NCBI RefSeq assembly: GCF_003003055.1
Contig: NZ_PVTV01000016.1
Location: forward strand, 62,001 to 126,000
Length of the DNA stretch: 64,000 nucleotides
DNA from: Jezberella montanilacus
Lineage (GTDB): Bacteria; Pseudomonadota; Gammaproteobacteria; Burkholderiales; Burkholderiaceae_B
Direction of reading: 5' to 3'
Shown: positions 29,883 to 34,887 of the stretch, piece after piece
How positions within the stretch are numbered: the first letter of the stretch is position 1
Layout of the letters: each line of letters opens with the position of its first letter
Notes under the pieces: model-generated
What the model was told of the DNA's origin: nothing
Seen by the model: only the letters and a program-made list of their open reading frames with translations
The model's database searches: none
Program-made: the position numbers and the translations under genes

Positions 29883-32243
29883 CTAATTATCCGGCTGCAA
29901 CTGCACAACGTACTGAGGGAAAGGCAGTTCGATTCCCTCTTTATTGAACGCGTCCAGAATGGCCAGTCTGACTGTGCCCAAGGTGGCGATGACGCTCGTG
30001 GTGGGATTGATTCTGATCCACAACTGAACGATAAAAATTAATCCTCTATCGCCAAATTCGTGCAAGGTTGCCATGGGCGATGGCTCAGACAAGACCCCCT
30101 CTTGCTCGACACACGCTTGAACAAGCAAATCGATCACTCGCTTGACGTCCGAACCGTACGCGACAGTGACTTGAATTTCTCGTCTGACGTCAGGGGTTGA
30201 ATAGGTCCAGTTGATTAGTTTTTGTTCAACTAAAACGCTGTTCGGTATTAAATTGTCAGTACCGTGCGCGCTCTGTATGGTTGAAAACCTAATGCCAATT
30301 GACGTGACCGTACCGGTGATGTTGTCGACTTCAACCACGTCACCGATACGAATCGACTTCTCAATCAGCAGCATCACGCCGCTAAAGAGATTTTTGAGCA
30401 GATTTTGAGTTCCAAAACCAACGCCAATTGCTAAGGCACCGCCGAAAAATGCAAACGCACTGAGTGGAATCTCGACCAGATTAAACGCACAGATGACCAG
30501 GGTGATCCCACCACCTAATGTCAGCCATCGGCCGACCACAACTGAGCGGCTTAAGGTCAACCCGGCTTTACTGACCGCAAGGGCAAGGCTTCGTTTGATG
30601 ATCGTAGAAATCAGTGAGAACCCGATAAACAAAATCGCCAACGCACCGATACTTTTTCCTATGGTCACACTGCGCTTGGTCTTGATTTCGCGGCCATCGA
30701 CAATGGCTGTATCGTCAACCGCAATCAACTCGTAGCGCCAGATGGTTTGAAATGCTTCACGGCTTGCTGCGGCAAAATTCTTGACGTTTTCCCACAGGTT
30801 AAGGTTTGTAGCAGCGTTTTCGATTTCTATCGCAGAGATTGCCAGCAGCTGTTTAACACGATCAGTCTGCGTATCGACTGATCGCAAATCTTCTAGCCTG
30901 GCGCTGTTTTGCTGAACCAAGCCATCATAAAAACTTTTCTCGCTTGGGCTATTTGCGTTGTTGCGTTGCTCTCTCAAGGCGATGAGCGATTGACTGTTTT
31001 CGTCAATCACCTCTTTCAGATACTGTATCCCTTGATCCAGCTTTCGACTATCTTCGCTCTGGCGAAGCTGTATGTTTTTTAGATCACTAGAAAGATTGTC
31101 TTCGTCATGAAGTTGACGCCGCATTGACCAAATATCTTTAGTCAGTAATTCCAGTTCAATGAGCGCGCGGTATTTTGCTCGGGCTGTCCGGACGCCAGCG
31201 ACCGCAGCGTCCAGCGTTAGCCAAGTCCGCTTAGCTTGCGCAATTTCATTTGACGAGGCGTTTTGCCTGCTCTGTAACGTCTCGAAGAGGGCACTAGCGG
31301 CCTTAGCTTTAGCAACGGATTGCGTGAGCCGAGAACTTTCTTCTAACTCTTTCGCACGTAAACCCGCTATTTTTTTATCAATTTCCGCTAAGCGGTTATC
31401 TAAATCTTGCTGGGTGAAGGAAAACCGATTCTGATAGAAATCCCACGTTTTTTGTGTTGTAGACAATTGCACGTACAACAAGCGACGCAGCTGAAGAATA
31501 ATTCGCCTTTCAATATCTGTGCGAATCAGGTCCAAATCGTACAGATCCAGTTTTGTTCTGGTTCTATCAATATCAAGGCGCAACACAGCCTCAGCTTCGG
31601 GATTCGCCCGACTGCTTGAGCTTGTCCCCAGCGACTGACGCAAATCGATTTCTGCTTGTGACCGAAGTTTCTTTTGAGCCACGATTTCTTGATCAAGAAT
31701 ATCGATTTTTCGATCTTGCTTATTGATTTGCGCTTTGAATTGCTGGAGAGCGACAAGGGTGTCATCCCCAACACTCAAAGGCCAGGGTGGCGTCCCAGGG
31801 GGGGGATTCCAGCTTTCTCGCTCGGCATCTGCTGCGATCGTGTTTCTGATTTGCCGGTCGAGCTCTTTGAGCAAATCGTTGATCTGAGATAAGTAGTCGA
31901 TACGAGTTTGTAGCGAAGCGTCAAGCTGCATGGCGAGCAGCCGCTGTGCATCGGAGGCCTCTGCAGGCAACGCCGCCAGTGTGATTTTCGCTTTGTTGCT
32001 GTCTGCAATGGCTTGGTCGAGCTGTTTTTGCGTCTCTGTTTGTTGGGCAGTAACGGACGCGAGTTGCTCTTTACTGCCTAAGTTGTCTGCGCCAGTGACG
32101 TCTGTGCCTTTCGCACTTGGCGTTGCTGTCTTGAGCAACAGTGAGGTCATGCTTGGTGATTGCGCAAGCGACTGCCCTGTCGTAAAGAATAAAAATGAAG
32201 TGAAAACGATAGCGAAGTGCCTTAGCGCGGAGGATCTCAACAT
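29883..32243 (-). CDS. Mechanosensitive ion channel, MscS superfamily (MscK/KefA-like)
   Basis: A 786-residue large MscS-type channel. A signal peptide (residues ~1-27, cleaved after SLAQ) is followed by about 450 residues of helical, Gln/Lys-rich, probably coiled-coil periplasmic domain. Several transmembrane helices start near residue 525 (SIGALAILFIGFSLISTII). The MscS pore and beta domain contain FGGALAIGVGFGTQNLLKNL and IRIGDVVEVDNITGTV. It should open under hypo-osmotic stress. It is shorter than E. coli MscK (1120 aa) because the periplasmic region is reduced. YggT lies 12 nt upstream on the same strand. Confidence 0.92.
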   Translation of the reverse strand: MLRSSALRHFAIVFTSFLFFTTGQSLAQSPSMTSLLLKTATPSAKGTDVTGADNLGSKEQLASVTAQQTETQKQLDQAIADSNKAKITLAALPAEASDAQRLLAMQLDASLQTRIDYLSQINDLLKELDRQIRNTIAADAERESWNPPPGTPPWPLSVGDDTLVALQQFKAQINKQDRKIDILDQEIVAQKKLRSQAEIDLRQSLGTSSSSRANPEAEAVLRLDIDRTRTKLDLYDLDLIRTDIERRIILQLRRLLYVQLSTTQKTWDFYQNRFSFTQQDLDNRLAEIDKKIAGLRAKELEESSRLTQSVAKAKAASALFETLQSRQNASSNEIAQAKRTWLTLDAAVAGVRTARAKYRALIELELLTKDIWSMRRQLHDEDNLSSDLKNIQLRQSEDSRKLDQGIQYLKEVIDENSQSLIALREQRNNANSPSEKSFYDGLVQQNSARLEDLRSVDTQTDRVKQLLAISAIEIENAATNLNLWENVKNFAAASREAFQTIWRYELIAVDDTAIVDGREIKTKRSVTIGKSIGALAILFIGFSLISTIIKRSLALAVSKAGLTLSRSVVVGRWLTLGGGITLVICAFNLVEIPLSAFAFFGGALAIGVGFGTQNLLKNLFSGVMLLIEKSIRIGDVVEVDNITGTVTSIGIRFSTIQSAHGTDNLIPNSVLVEQKLINWTYSTPDVRREIQVTVAYGSDVKRVIDLLVQACVEQEGVLSEPSPMATLHEFGDRGLIFIVQLWIRINPTTSVIATLGTVRLAILDAFNKEGIELPFPQYVVQLQPDN

Positions 32244-32255
32244 ACGTTGTTTTAT

Positions 32256-32828
32256 TTAAATGAGTAAGAGCGCAAAACTAATTTGATCGAGCACGATCAG
32301 TGCGATTTGTGCCAGGACGAACAGAATGAGGGTGGACAGGTCGATCCCGTTTAAGTTCGGCGTAATTCTGCGGATCGGAGCCAATAAGGGATCACTCAGT
32401 GTTCGTAGCACGGGCATGATGGGGGCGAGCGGGTTAATCCACGATAAAACAGTCTGTATCAGTGTTAACCAGATAATCAAATTTAATGACCAGGTCGCCA
32501 CCTTGACCAGCGCAGTGACAAATAGACGAACCAGTAAGTAAGGTGGAACCAAGGATCCGGTACTGAGCATCGATATCAAAACAAGATAAGCGACGGCGAT
32601 CAGATAGGCCGCGAAGAGGGAGCTCCAGTCGATATGTTTTGCTTGCGGCATCACGCGTCGTATCGGCAGGACGAGCCAGTCGGTGACTTGAGCGATCGTT
32701 TTAGCGGCTGGATTGAAGGGATGTAGGCGGACCGTGTACATCCAAGCGCGACCCAAAAGTGCTACCCCCAGCGCTGTTGAGGCAGTTTGCAAAAGAAATC
32801 TGAGGATTTCTGCAATCGTTGAAGTCAT
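32256..32828 (-). CDS. YggT family integral membrane protein
   Basis: A 190-residue membrane protein with two YggT repeats, each a pair of hydrophobic helices around a conserved segment (HPFNPAAKTI with VLPIRRVMP, then WINPLAPIMPVLRTLSDPLLAPIRRITP). The molecular role is poorly defined; relatives have been tied to osmotic tolerance and to cell envelope or division processes. It lies 12 nt before the MscK-like channel, so a shared osmotic-response unit is a reasonable inference. Confidence 0.9.
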   Translation of the reverse strand: MTSTIAEILRFLLQTASTALGVALLGRAWMYTVRLHPFNPAAKTIAQVTDWLVLPIRRVMPQAKHIDWSSLFAAYLIAVAYLVLISMLSTGSLVPPYLLVRLFVTALVKVATWSLNLIIWLTLIQTVLSWINPLAPIMPVLRTLSDPLLAPIRRITPNLNGIDLSTLILFVLAQIALIVLDQISFALLLI

Positions 32829-32898
32829 ATCTCACCACTTGGACAAAGTTAGACCTTATTGTCGCATGCGAGGATCATATTCATCAGCAACTGAAATG

Positions 32899-32930
32899 TA
32901 AAAAACCGCCTGACAAAGCCAGGCGGTTCA
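32899..32930 (-). terminator. Rho-independent terminator of the H1-like gene
   Basis: A perfect 9-bp inverted repeat (arms 32904-32912 and 32920-32928, loop of 7) is followed on the minus strand by a T-run at 32899-32905. It lies 23 nt beyond the TAA that ends the -1 frame extension of the H1-like gene and about 155 nt beyond the zero-frame stop. Confidence 0.85.
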
Positions 32931-32952
32931 TCCCTACATCCATAACAAGAAC

Positions 32953-33087
32953 TTATGGACGACCACCCGTGGGGAAAGGCCAAGATGCTGCAGGGTTCAG
33001 AGCGGTCTTCGCGCCTGGCGCTGCGGCTGTCGAGGGGGTTGCAGCTGGGGTAACAGCAGGCTTGCCTGCTGTTACCTTTTTAACTAC
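32953..33087 (-). other. Frame -1 coding extension of the H1-like gene (44 codons plus TAA)
   Basis: Starting from G 33087 in the -1 frame, codons run without a stop for 44 residues to TAA at 32953-32955. The product begins VVKKVTAGKPAVTPAATP and ends ALNPAAS then WPFPTGGRP. It keeps the Lys/Ala/Pro composition of the upstream protein, and the closing tryptophan-containing tail matches, as I remember them, the ends of intact Burkholderiales H1-like proteins. It could be reached by -1 ribosomal slippage on A AAA AAG (33093-33087) or by transcriptional slippage on the A9 run. Otherwise it is the lost tail of a gene with a 1-nt deletion or a homopolymer sequencing error. A fused product would be 157 aa. 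Confidence 0.75.
33049..33076 (-). other. Perfect 13-bp inverted repeat 3' of the slippery run
   Basis: Arms 33064-33076 and 33049-33061 are exactly complementary (GGTAACAGCAGGC pairs with its complement) around a 2-nt centre. A stable hairpin with 12 paired bases and a 4-nt loop would form in the mRNA, beginning 10 nt after the A AAA AAG heptamer. On the minus strand it has no following U-run, so it is not a terminator for the H1-like gene. On the plus strand it is followed by T5 and then T9, and could terminate antisense transcription. Confidence 0.7.
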
Positions 33088-33425
33088 TTTTTTTTTACAG
33101 GTGCTGCTGGTTTTGGAGCTGGAGCTTTTTTAGCTACAACTTTCTTGGCTGCTGCTTTTTTAGCAGGAGCTTTTTTTGCTGCAACTTTCTTGACTGCTGC
33201 TGTTTTAGCAGGAGCTTTTTTTGCTGCAACTTTCTTGACTGCTGCTTTTTTAGCAGGAGCTTTTTTTGCAGCGACTTTCTTAACTGCTACTTTCTTAACT
33301 GCTGCTTTTTTAGCAGGAGCTTTTTTTGCAGCGACTTTCTTAACTGCTGCAACTTTCTTTACTACTGCCTTGACTGCTGCTTTCTTGGCAGGGGCTTTCT
33401 TTGCTGCTTTTTTGGCTGTTGCCAT
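33084..33425 (-). CDS. Histone H1-like Lys/Ala-rich DNA-binding protein (zero-frame part)
   Basis: A very basic 113-residue protein made almost only of Lys, Ala, Val and Pro in a repeated KKVAAKKAPAKKAAV-type unit. It resembles the bacterial H1-like proteins (BpH1 of Bordetella, the HctB/AlgP type) that bind DNA and compact the nucleoid. The start ATG is preceded by AAGGAGT, a strong ribosome site. The zero frame ends in GTA AAA AAA AAG TAG at 33098-33084, right on an A9 run. The sensible C-terminal tail lies in the -1 frame to 32953, so the full product is probably 157 aa. The gene has its own terminator at 32899-32930. Expression of one or two forms is inferred. Confidence 0.85.
   Translation of the reverse strand: MATAKKAAKKAPAKKAAVKAVVKKVAAVKKVAAKKAPAKKAAVKKVAVKKVAAKKAPAKKAAVKKVAAKKAPAKTAAVKKVAAKKAPAKKAAAKKVVAKKAPAPKPAAPVKKK
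33131..33390 (-). repeat. 45-bp tandem repeats coding for the H1-like Lys/Ala units
   Basis: The plus-strand word AGCAGGAGCTTTTTTT recurs at about 33162, 33207, 33252 and 33312, spacings of 45, 45 and 60 nt. Each unit encodes 15 or 20 residues of the KKVAAKKAPAKKAAV type. Such arrays expand and contract by slipped-strand replication, and size variation is known for Bordetella H1. Confidence 0.8.
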
Positions 33426-33574
33426 GGTAATACTCCTTGAGTTCAGGGTCCCAAACTAAAACCCGTGCTTGACTACGTCCCACCATGGGATTTCGTGTCG
33501 CTCGAGTTATTCATCGGCACAAACTACTGCTATCTTGCATCAGTAAAAACGTTTGCACTAATGAATACGGCACA

Positions 33575-33622
33575 GCCATTTGAACTGAATCCCGCAACTT
33601 AGCGAGAATCAATTCAAATGGC
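33575..33622. other. Imperfect long inverted repeat between nrdB and the H1-like gene
   Basis: Arms 33575-33590 and 33607-33622 match in 14 of 16 positions (GCCATTTGAA is perfect) around a 16-nt loop, in the 259-nt gap between nrdB and the H1-like gene. There is no T-run, so it is not a classic terminator. It could protect the nrdB mRNA 3' end, regulate H1 expression or form part of a small RNA. The role is unknown. Confidence 0.45.
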
Positions 33623-33684
33623 ACCGAGGCTAACTACAGCCTTCGGCATGTAATAAGCGTGAGCAAGTGTAAACCGGCGAGGGC

Positions 33685-34887
33685 CTATTCCCAATTCAGG
33701 GCACCTCCGGTTTGATACTCAATCACGCGAGTTTCAAAAAAGTTACGTTCTTTTTTCAGATCGATCATTTCTGCCATCCAGGGGAATGGATTTTCTTCCT
33801 GGGCGAACAGCGGCTCGATACCGATTTGCTGGCAGCGACGGTTTGCAATGAAACGCAGATAAGATTTGAACATTGGGGCATTCAAACCCAGCACGCCACG
33901 CGGCATCGTGTCTTCAGCGTAGGCATATTCAAGTTCGACGGCTTTGCTAAATAGCGCCCGAATCTCTTCACGGAAAGCGGGTGTCCACAGATGAGGATTT
34001 TCGAGCTTGATGCTGTTGATCAGGTCAATCCCAAAATTGCAGTGCATGGACTCATCACGCAGAATGTACATGTATTGTTCTGCAGCACCCGTCATCTTGT
34101 TCTGACGGCCGAGAGCAAGAATTTGTGTAAAGCCTACATAAAAGAAGAGGCCTTCCATCAGGCATGCAAAAACGATCAAGGATTTGAGCAGAGTCTGATC
34201 GTTCTCGGGCGTGCCTGTCTTGAAGTGAGGGTCTGCGATTGCATCAATGAACGGAATAAGGAACTCATCCTTGGCGCGAATGGACGGTACTTCGTTATAG
34301 GCATTGAAAATTTCTGACTCATCCAAATCCAAGCTTTCAACAATATATTGATAGGCGTGGGTATGGATTGCCTCTTCAAAGGCTTGCCGTAGTAAAAACT
34401 GACGGCATTCAGGCGCCGTGATGTGGCGATAAGTGCCCAGGACAATATTGTTAGCAGCCAGAGAATCAGCGGTGACAAAAAAGCCAAGATTGCGTTTGAT
34501 GATGCGACGCTCGTCGTCGCTTAAGCCAGTTGGGTTTTTCCAGAGTGCAATGTCGCGAGACATGTTGATCTCTTGAGGCATCCAGTGGTTGGCACAAGTT
34601 GCGATGTATTTTTCCCAGGCCCATTTGTACTTAAAAGGAACTAGCTGATTGACATCGGTTTGACCGTTGATGATTCGCTTATCAGCAACATTAACGCGTC
34701 GTTGCGCTGTAGCTTCGGTAGCGATTGGTGCTTCAGGTGCAATGGCAGGAGGCAAGGCTGTATCGCCAAATACGCCCGTTGCTTGACGCAAGGCGGCAGC
34801 TGCGGCACTGGCCAAACCTAAGCCACCAACTGCCACCGATGGTGGGGTTGGCGTGGTTGCGATTACTTCGTCGTTCCAGGTAAGCAT
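33685..34887 (-). CDS. nrdB: Ribonucleoside-diphosphate reductase beta subunit (class Ia type)
   Basis: Radical-generating R2 subunit (400 aa). Diiron ligands are seen as D141 (TADSLAANN), E172 and H175, a Glu in [10 protein letters not shown], and the ESMH motif ([10 protein letters not shown]). The radical Tyr is Y179, in the E-A-I-H-T-H-A-Y pattern that matches E115-H118-Y122 of E. coli. This supports a tyrosyl-radical enzyme. An Ala/Pro-rich extension of about 65 residues precedes the core. ATG 34887 lies 19 nt after the nrdA stop; longer frames would overlap nrdA. It is co-transcribed with nrdA. Confidence 0.96.

Follow-up and report, generated by a model that had tools for sequence, protein, structure and literature searches.

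The window, the whole stretch of 64,000 nucleotides of Jezberella montanilacus DNA that was analysed, carries on its minus strand a histone H1-like gene flanked by nrdB and a yggT-like gene. The gene starts with ATG at 33425 and its body ends as GTA AAA AAA AAG TAG at 33098-33084. A -1 reading at this point gives GTA GTT AAA AAG and continues, for 44 codons in all, to TAA at 32953, for a total of 157 aa. An earlier note on this DNA had placed the zero-frame end, a heptamer at 33093-33087 and the -1 tail at these positions, all of which held on re-reading, and the reading frames behind the two forms that it predicted, of 113 and 157 aa, were confirmed. The features of the locus are as follows.

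33087..33425, minus strand: body of the H1-like (HC2/BpH1-like) gene, with Lys/Ala repeats, zero frame, 113 codons (direct reading and profile matches)
33088..33096, minus strand: A9 run, the proposed slippage site (sequence; run preservation in relatives)
33087..33093, minus strand: in-frame A AAA AAG heptamer, a possible ribosomal -1 slip site (sequence directly)
33084..33086, minus strand: zero-frame stop TAG right after the run, closing the short form (sequence)
32953..33087, minus strand: -1-frame tail, 44 codons GTA GTT ... CCA plus stop TAA, ending WPFPTGGRP (translation; this frame is under purifying selection in relatives)
33049..33076, minus strand: stem-loop 10 nt 3' of the heptamer, a possible auxiliary stimulator (folding, z -4.29)
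32903..32929, minus strand: terminator-like hairpin with a T-run, downstream of the tail stop (terminator scan against shuffles)

The body scored 40.6 bits against the Pfam HC2 profile (PF07382), over the cut-off of 40, and on this match it is an HC2/BpH1-like histone H1-like protein. The hairpin that had been described as a perfect 13-bp repeat 10 nt downstream kept its position (33076-33049), but folding gave a 12-bp stem with a 4-nt loop; the 65-nt stretch that contains it had a minimum free energy of -27.2 and a z of -4.29 against 200 dinucleotide shuffles. Seven terminator-like sites were found in the region where shuffles led us to expect 1.8, the one at 32903-32929 being the only one on the strand of the gene, and an Rfam scan of 31500-34500 at gathering scores gave no match.

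The window's genus is the freshwater GKS98 group, with Zwartia and Sheuella; GKS98 is described as a freshwater cluster of the Alcaligenaceae (PMC10535154). Searching 32 genomes of this genus, the window's own (G000) included, we found the tail in 29 and not in G006, G020 and G023. Body and tail were both readable in 23 genomes, with 20 of the 23 shifted, 18 as GC-A10-TAG and two (the window and G021) as A9-G-TAG, and three in frame, namely G001 (GC-A10-GTAGCT), G011 (GC-A10-GTAACG) and G018 (GCT-A9-GTAGCT); these genome counts are inflated by shared ancestry. A10-TAG is also seen in G012 and G019, where the body or its end is incomplete, the body of G026 ends in A10-T at a contig edge, and G022, G024 and G025 are cut within the tail. 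Exact A10 runs number 61 across the 32 genomes, and 23 of them are this join (G026 included), which in eight genomes is the sole exact A10 run; exact A9 runs in the window's genome number 25 per 3.16 Mb. Other exact A10 runs with similar flanks, possibly conserved, lie in two sister genomes (G002:C1:384785 and G005:C7:134617; G002:C22:808868 and G005:C12:53867). Four genomes of the sister genus (L113, L117, L118 and L123) have an A8 run near the same place, all in frame. The names of the MAG records titled Bordetella parapertussis and Lautropia mirabilis look mistaken, their contigs belonging to the window's genus (L048, L052) and the sister genus (L028).

Tail matches extended to 177 of 268 genomes of the window's family and to 52 of 399 at the level of the order, and the end of the tail is kept across the family, Achromobacter and Bordetella records included. 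Among the matches listed in the family, those from genera other than the window's are found in long open frames, the exceptions being G105 and some near contig ends. The tail of G105 (L130; same family, other genus) sits in a separate frame; we judged this case unrelated, the gene having two frame breaks elsewhere at shorter A runs. Elsewhere in the order, in other families or genera, all 15 loci examined (L173-L187) are in frame, and L185-L187, from another family, have A8 or A9 runs in H1-like bodies with the frame intact and no such join.

Short tail frames recurred in a second genus (g73), which is very probably Polynucleobacter, belongs to another family of the same order and has a tail match in 144 of 186 genomes; 111 of the 144 were inspected. 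The earlier note had proposed an alignment of relatives as a check, and a frame-disrupting run followed by a conserved -1 tail was found in 20 of 23 genomes in the window's genus and in 88 of 111 in the second, where it takes the form A9-G-TAA (the body is whole in 86 and partial in G811 and G829). Two other genomes are shifted, G740 (A8-G-TAA) and G708 (an A10 variant). The A8 runs of G671 (L189) and G702 (L235) leave the tail in the third register; each stands beside an A9 relative on the tree, and the two variants may be recent indels or errors. Twelve of the 111 are in frame with the run, 11 as A10-G-TAG and G781 as A11-TAG, ten of them complete and two (G792 and G828) cut. Five more are in frame and have no A run of at least 8, namely G768 (L165) and G776, G777, G654 and G775 (L258-L261). 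The body of G705 is broken next to an A10-G-TAG join, and for G685 the reading covers the tail frame, which is closed.

Substitution rates indicate that the -1 tail is under purifying selection in both genera. For the window's genus, the comparison took in 19 shifted genomes whose tails are equally long, leaving out the longer tail of the window; mean dN was 0.034 and mean dS 0.568 (NG86; dN/dS 0.06), and dN was below dS in 170 of 170 usable pairs out of 171, these pairs not being independent. The aligned tails of 86 shifted genomes of the second genus gave a mean dN of 0.102 and a mean dS of 0.531 (dN/dS 0.19), with dN below dS in 3511 of 3541 usable pairs out of 3598, again not independent. 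Furthermore, 22 of the 29 degenerate tail codons that are invariant in amino acid among the 18 A10 genomes vary synonymously, and all 18 begin the tail with ATA, although this codon makes up 57 of the 1423 Ile codons found in neighbouring genes.

For a -1 slip on the heptamer, the base that precedes the three Lys codons is dispensable. All 106 shifted sequences share the same first two Lys codons in the run, and the codon before it has the same third base throughout (106 of 106). The tree, which holds 104 of the 106, places no third-position change at those three codons; the last Lys, AAG or AAA, has two. For comparison, twelve C-terminal tail codons have 5 to 21 third-position changes (the Trp codon 1), about one of them per tail column being due to a single sequence with an additional last codon, and four upstream codons have 11 to 25. 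Of the 106 sequences, 91 have GCA ahead of the run and 15 have GTA, with four changes between the two codons, so that this codon ends in A in 86 of 86 sequences of the second genus and 20 of 20 of the window's genus, whereas other Ala or Val codons that precede AAA Lys pairs in the same bodies do so in 31 of 644 and 49 of 192 cases, respectively. None of the Lys triplets elsewhere in these bodies uses AAA-AAA-AAx (0 of 270 and 0 of 6), and the longest other A run upstream of the join has no more than 7. These codon comparisons indicate that more of the run is preserved than the A-AAA-AAG heptamer requires. The run is also kept, as A9 to A11, in 15 in-frame genomes of the two genera. In 13 of the 13 in-frame genomes tested, the register with one A fewer meets a stop after 0-1 codons and that with one A more after 2-7, a pattern that we weighed modestly, as these stops are partly inherited and partly derive from the common GCT-AAA pair, which reads TAA in that frame.

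Taken together, the data suggest a conserved dual-product site in the gene of an H1-like nucleoid protein, and one that probably works by slippage of RNA polymerase. On this proposal, the polymerase would realign on the run, which is A9 here and A10 in most relatives, and yield a mixture of mRNAs; faithful copies would stop at the TAG after the run and give the short, Lys/Ala-rich form of 113 aa, and copies with one extra A would join the body to the WPFPTGGRP tail and give the form of 157 aa. In some related species the DNA has one more A, and there the faithful copy would encode the long form and copies with one A more or one fewer the short form. It is very probable, judging from the genome comparisons, that these bacteria make both forms by slipping on the run, and we infer that the RNA, not the ribosome, is the source of the change, and that the two forms both accumulate, in a ratio that is of consequence. 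Two marks of a slippage gene were found at the locus, an A9 or A10 run at the frame transition in all 20 shifted genomes of the window's genus and purifying selection on the out-of-frame coding sequence downstream. RNA-polymerase slippage is reported to depend on run length (PMC1088944, PMC5574713) and to be efficient in vivo on runs of 9 A (PMC5009743), and in the A/T runs of bacterial transcripts single-base insertions are reported to predominate (PMC5574713).

The ribosome offers another route to the same two products. Ribosomal -1 frameshifting in E. coli dnaX takes place at an A AAA AAG heptamer aided by stimulators, and the present locus shares with it the heptamer, a nearby stop and, in the window, a downstream stem; it differs in that the shifted product of E. 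coli is short, that no Shine-Dalgarno-like motif is present here and that the stem is not common to the window's genus. The earlier note had favoured a dnaX-like event of this kind. In such an event, slippage of tRNA-Lys on A AAA AAG (or A AAA AAA) would be promoted by the downstream stem. A conserved recoding join with its heptamer was borne out, but the mechanism proved less well supported, and we regard it as an unlikely explanation of the site. It accounts well for the in-frame heptamer before the stop, present in the window and in 86 of 86 A9 genomes of the second genus, and for the strong stem of the window. Also consistent with it, a 7-bp stem 7 nt after the heptamer is kept in 55 of 86 genomes of the second genus (at fixed positions, 8 break one pair and 23 two or more), where the mean structure z is -1.43 in 90 shifted genomes and -0.41 in 10 in-frame ones. 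However, the mean downstream z of the 20 shifted genomes of the window's genus is only -0.31 even with the window's -4.29 included, the next lowest value being -1.74 (G029), and the in-frame G001 reaches -2.17. We considered the stem as a stimulator common to the window's genus and rejected it, the window's z having no equal among the other 19 shifted genomes. Consistent with what the earlier note had seen in the window, no Shine-Dalgarno-like motif (AGGA, GGAG, GAGG, AGGT or GGGG, 6-23 nt upstream) occurs in any of the 106 shifted sequences, 0 of 20 in the window's genus and 0 of 86 in the second. The third register of G671 and G702, if not due to recent indels or errors, would need the opposite shift, and ribosomal frameshifting gives no reason for keeping the run in in-frame species. 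Since the run is preserved beyond the heptamer, no Shine-Dalgarno-like motif is seen and the window's hairpin is unequalled in its genus, transcriptional slippage, which the earlier note had listed as an alternative, is favoured. Both processes may nonetheless act, given the heptamer, the hairpin of the window and the stem kept in 55 of 86 genomes of the second genus.

Other explanations fare worse. A homopolymer error or a private 1-nt deletion in the window, as the earlier note had allowed, is excluded by the relatives that share the join. On a broader scale, homopolymers are error-prone and several MAG contigs break near the join; even so, the same join occurs in many separately assembled genomes, isolates among them, the tail is under purifying selection and the run and stop are conserved, making it highly improbable that the pattern reflects mistakes in sequencing or assembly, or a dead gene whose tail is decaying. 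Phase variation, in which mutation of the run length in the DNA would switch cells between short-only and long-only states, is in keeping with the mutability of poly-A runs, with the seven register differences found by parsimony and with the two tip-level A8 variants, but we hold it to be very unlikely in view of the uniform run length: all 18 of the A10-TAG genomes have A10 and none the in-frame A11, and A9 is found in 88 of 111 genomes of the second genus. Lastly, the tail could be a separate peptide made by re-initiation at the stop, where ATA overlaps TAG in the 18 A10 genomes (AUA and UAG in the transcript). This we find hardly credible, as the first tail codon of the window, of G021 and of the 86 A9 tails of the second genus is GTA, no known start, and other genera have body and tail joined in one frame.

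The distribution of the registers was examined on two trees, one of nrdA-nrdB-yggT with 31 tips and one of nrdB-yggT with 141 of 148 loci, and in-frame and shifted genomes interleave on both. The in-frame G011 and the shifted G021 are sisters with a support of 100 in both trees, and the in-frame G001 is sister to the shifted G016 and G029 with supports of 99 and 100. Parsimony gave seven register changes, four in the second genus and three in the window's genus, with G705 left out of the counts, G685 labelled as shifted by hand, deeper branches within the window's genus moderately supported and G000 placed differently by the two trees. We tentatively suggest that selection may keep the two-isoform mixture and not the frame, with flips between short-default and long-default states as in paramyxovirus P/V editing, the run and its adjoining stops persisting in two freshwater betaproteobacterial families. 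The five in-frame genomes of the second genus without a run of at least 8 imply that dual products are dispensable there; they would serve as natural controls expected to make the long form alone.

Mechanisms of this kind are already known, and transcriptional slippage here would have several parallels. The tssM1 gene of Citrobacter rodentium and tssM3 of Yersinia pseudotuberculosis are described as carrying a poly-A run on which transcriptional slippage gives rise to both a short and a full-length product, the default form being short in Citrobacter and full-length, at a higher level, in Yersinia (PMC4256274). Those are secretion-system genes with tested products and a ratio shown to matter, whereas the present case concerns a nucleoid protein known from sequence, in two genera and with several register changes. 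In Thermus thermophilus dnaX, slippage on A9 likewise yields two lengths of one cellular protein, reportedly about half and half, but there the faithful copy encodes the long form and the gene that of a polymerase subunit (PMC1088944, PMC5009743). Paramyxovirus P/V editing resembles the present case in polymerase slippage, alternative forms and a default form that is reported to have switched four times; as it involves a viral polymerase, G insertions and different proteins, it serves as an analogy only (PMC8204654). The BpH1/HC2 proteins themselves (NF038053, PF07382) are described as DNA-binding proteins of Lys/Ala pentamer repeats, like the one here, whose length varies with repeat number; size variants there come from that number, and the term frameshift is absent from the main text of the source (PMC2848022). 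For an H1-like gene, Polynucleobacter included (by title), our literature search, which covered papers without their supplements, found no report of frameshifting or slippage; the word histone is absent from the main text of PMC3711429 and PMC1088944 and has one unrelated occurrence in the part of PMC5009743 that was covered.

If the proposal is correct, two forms of a chromatin protein are a regular product of widespread freshwater bacteria, made through a transcriptional mechanism that is known for a few bacterial genes and some viruses. The shifted, in-frame and run-less relatives would then offer a natural setting in which to compare whether slippage is selected because it yields dual products or is simply tolerated. 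As to the function of the tail, our guess is that it could make contact with a partner or with itself and so tune DNA compaction. On the same proposal, annotation of the gene in the zero frame loses this conserved tail; the zero-frame product falls under an NCBIfam cut-off that in-frame relatives pass: the body of the window gene scored 46.6 bits against NF038053, below the cut-off of 80, and the in-frame G001 and G011 scored 100.8 and 104.2 bits, with HC2 scores of 74.3 and 59.5 bits.
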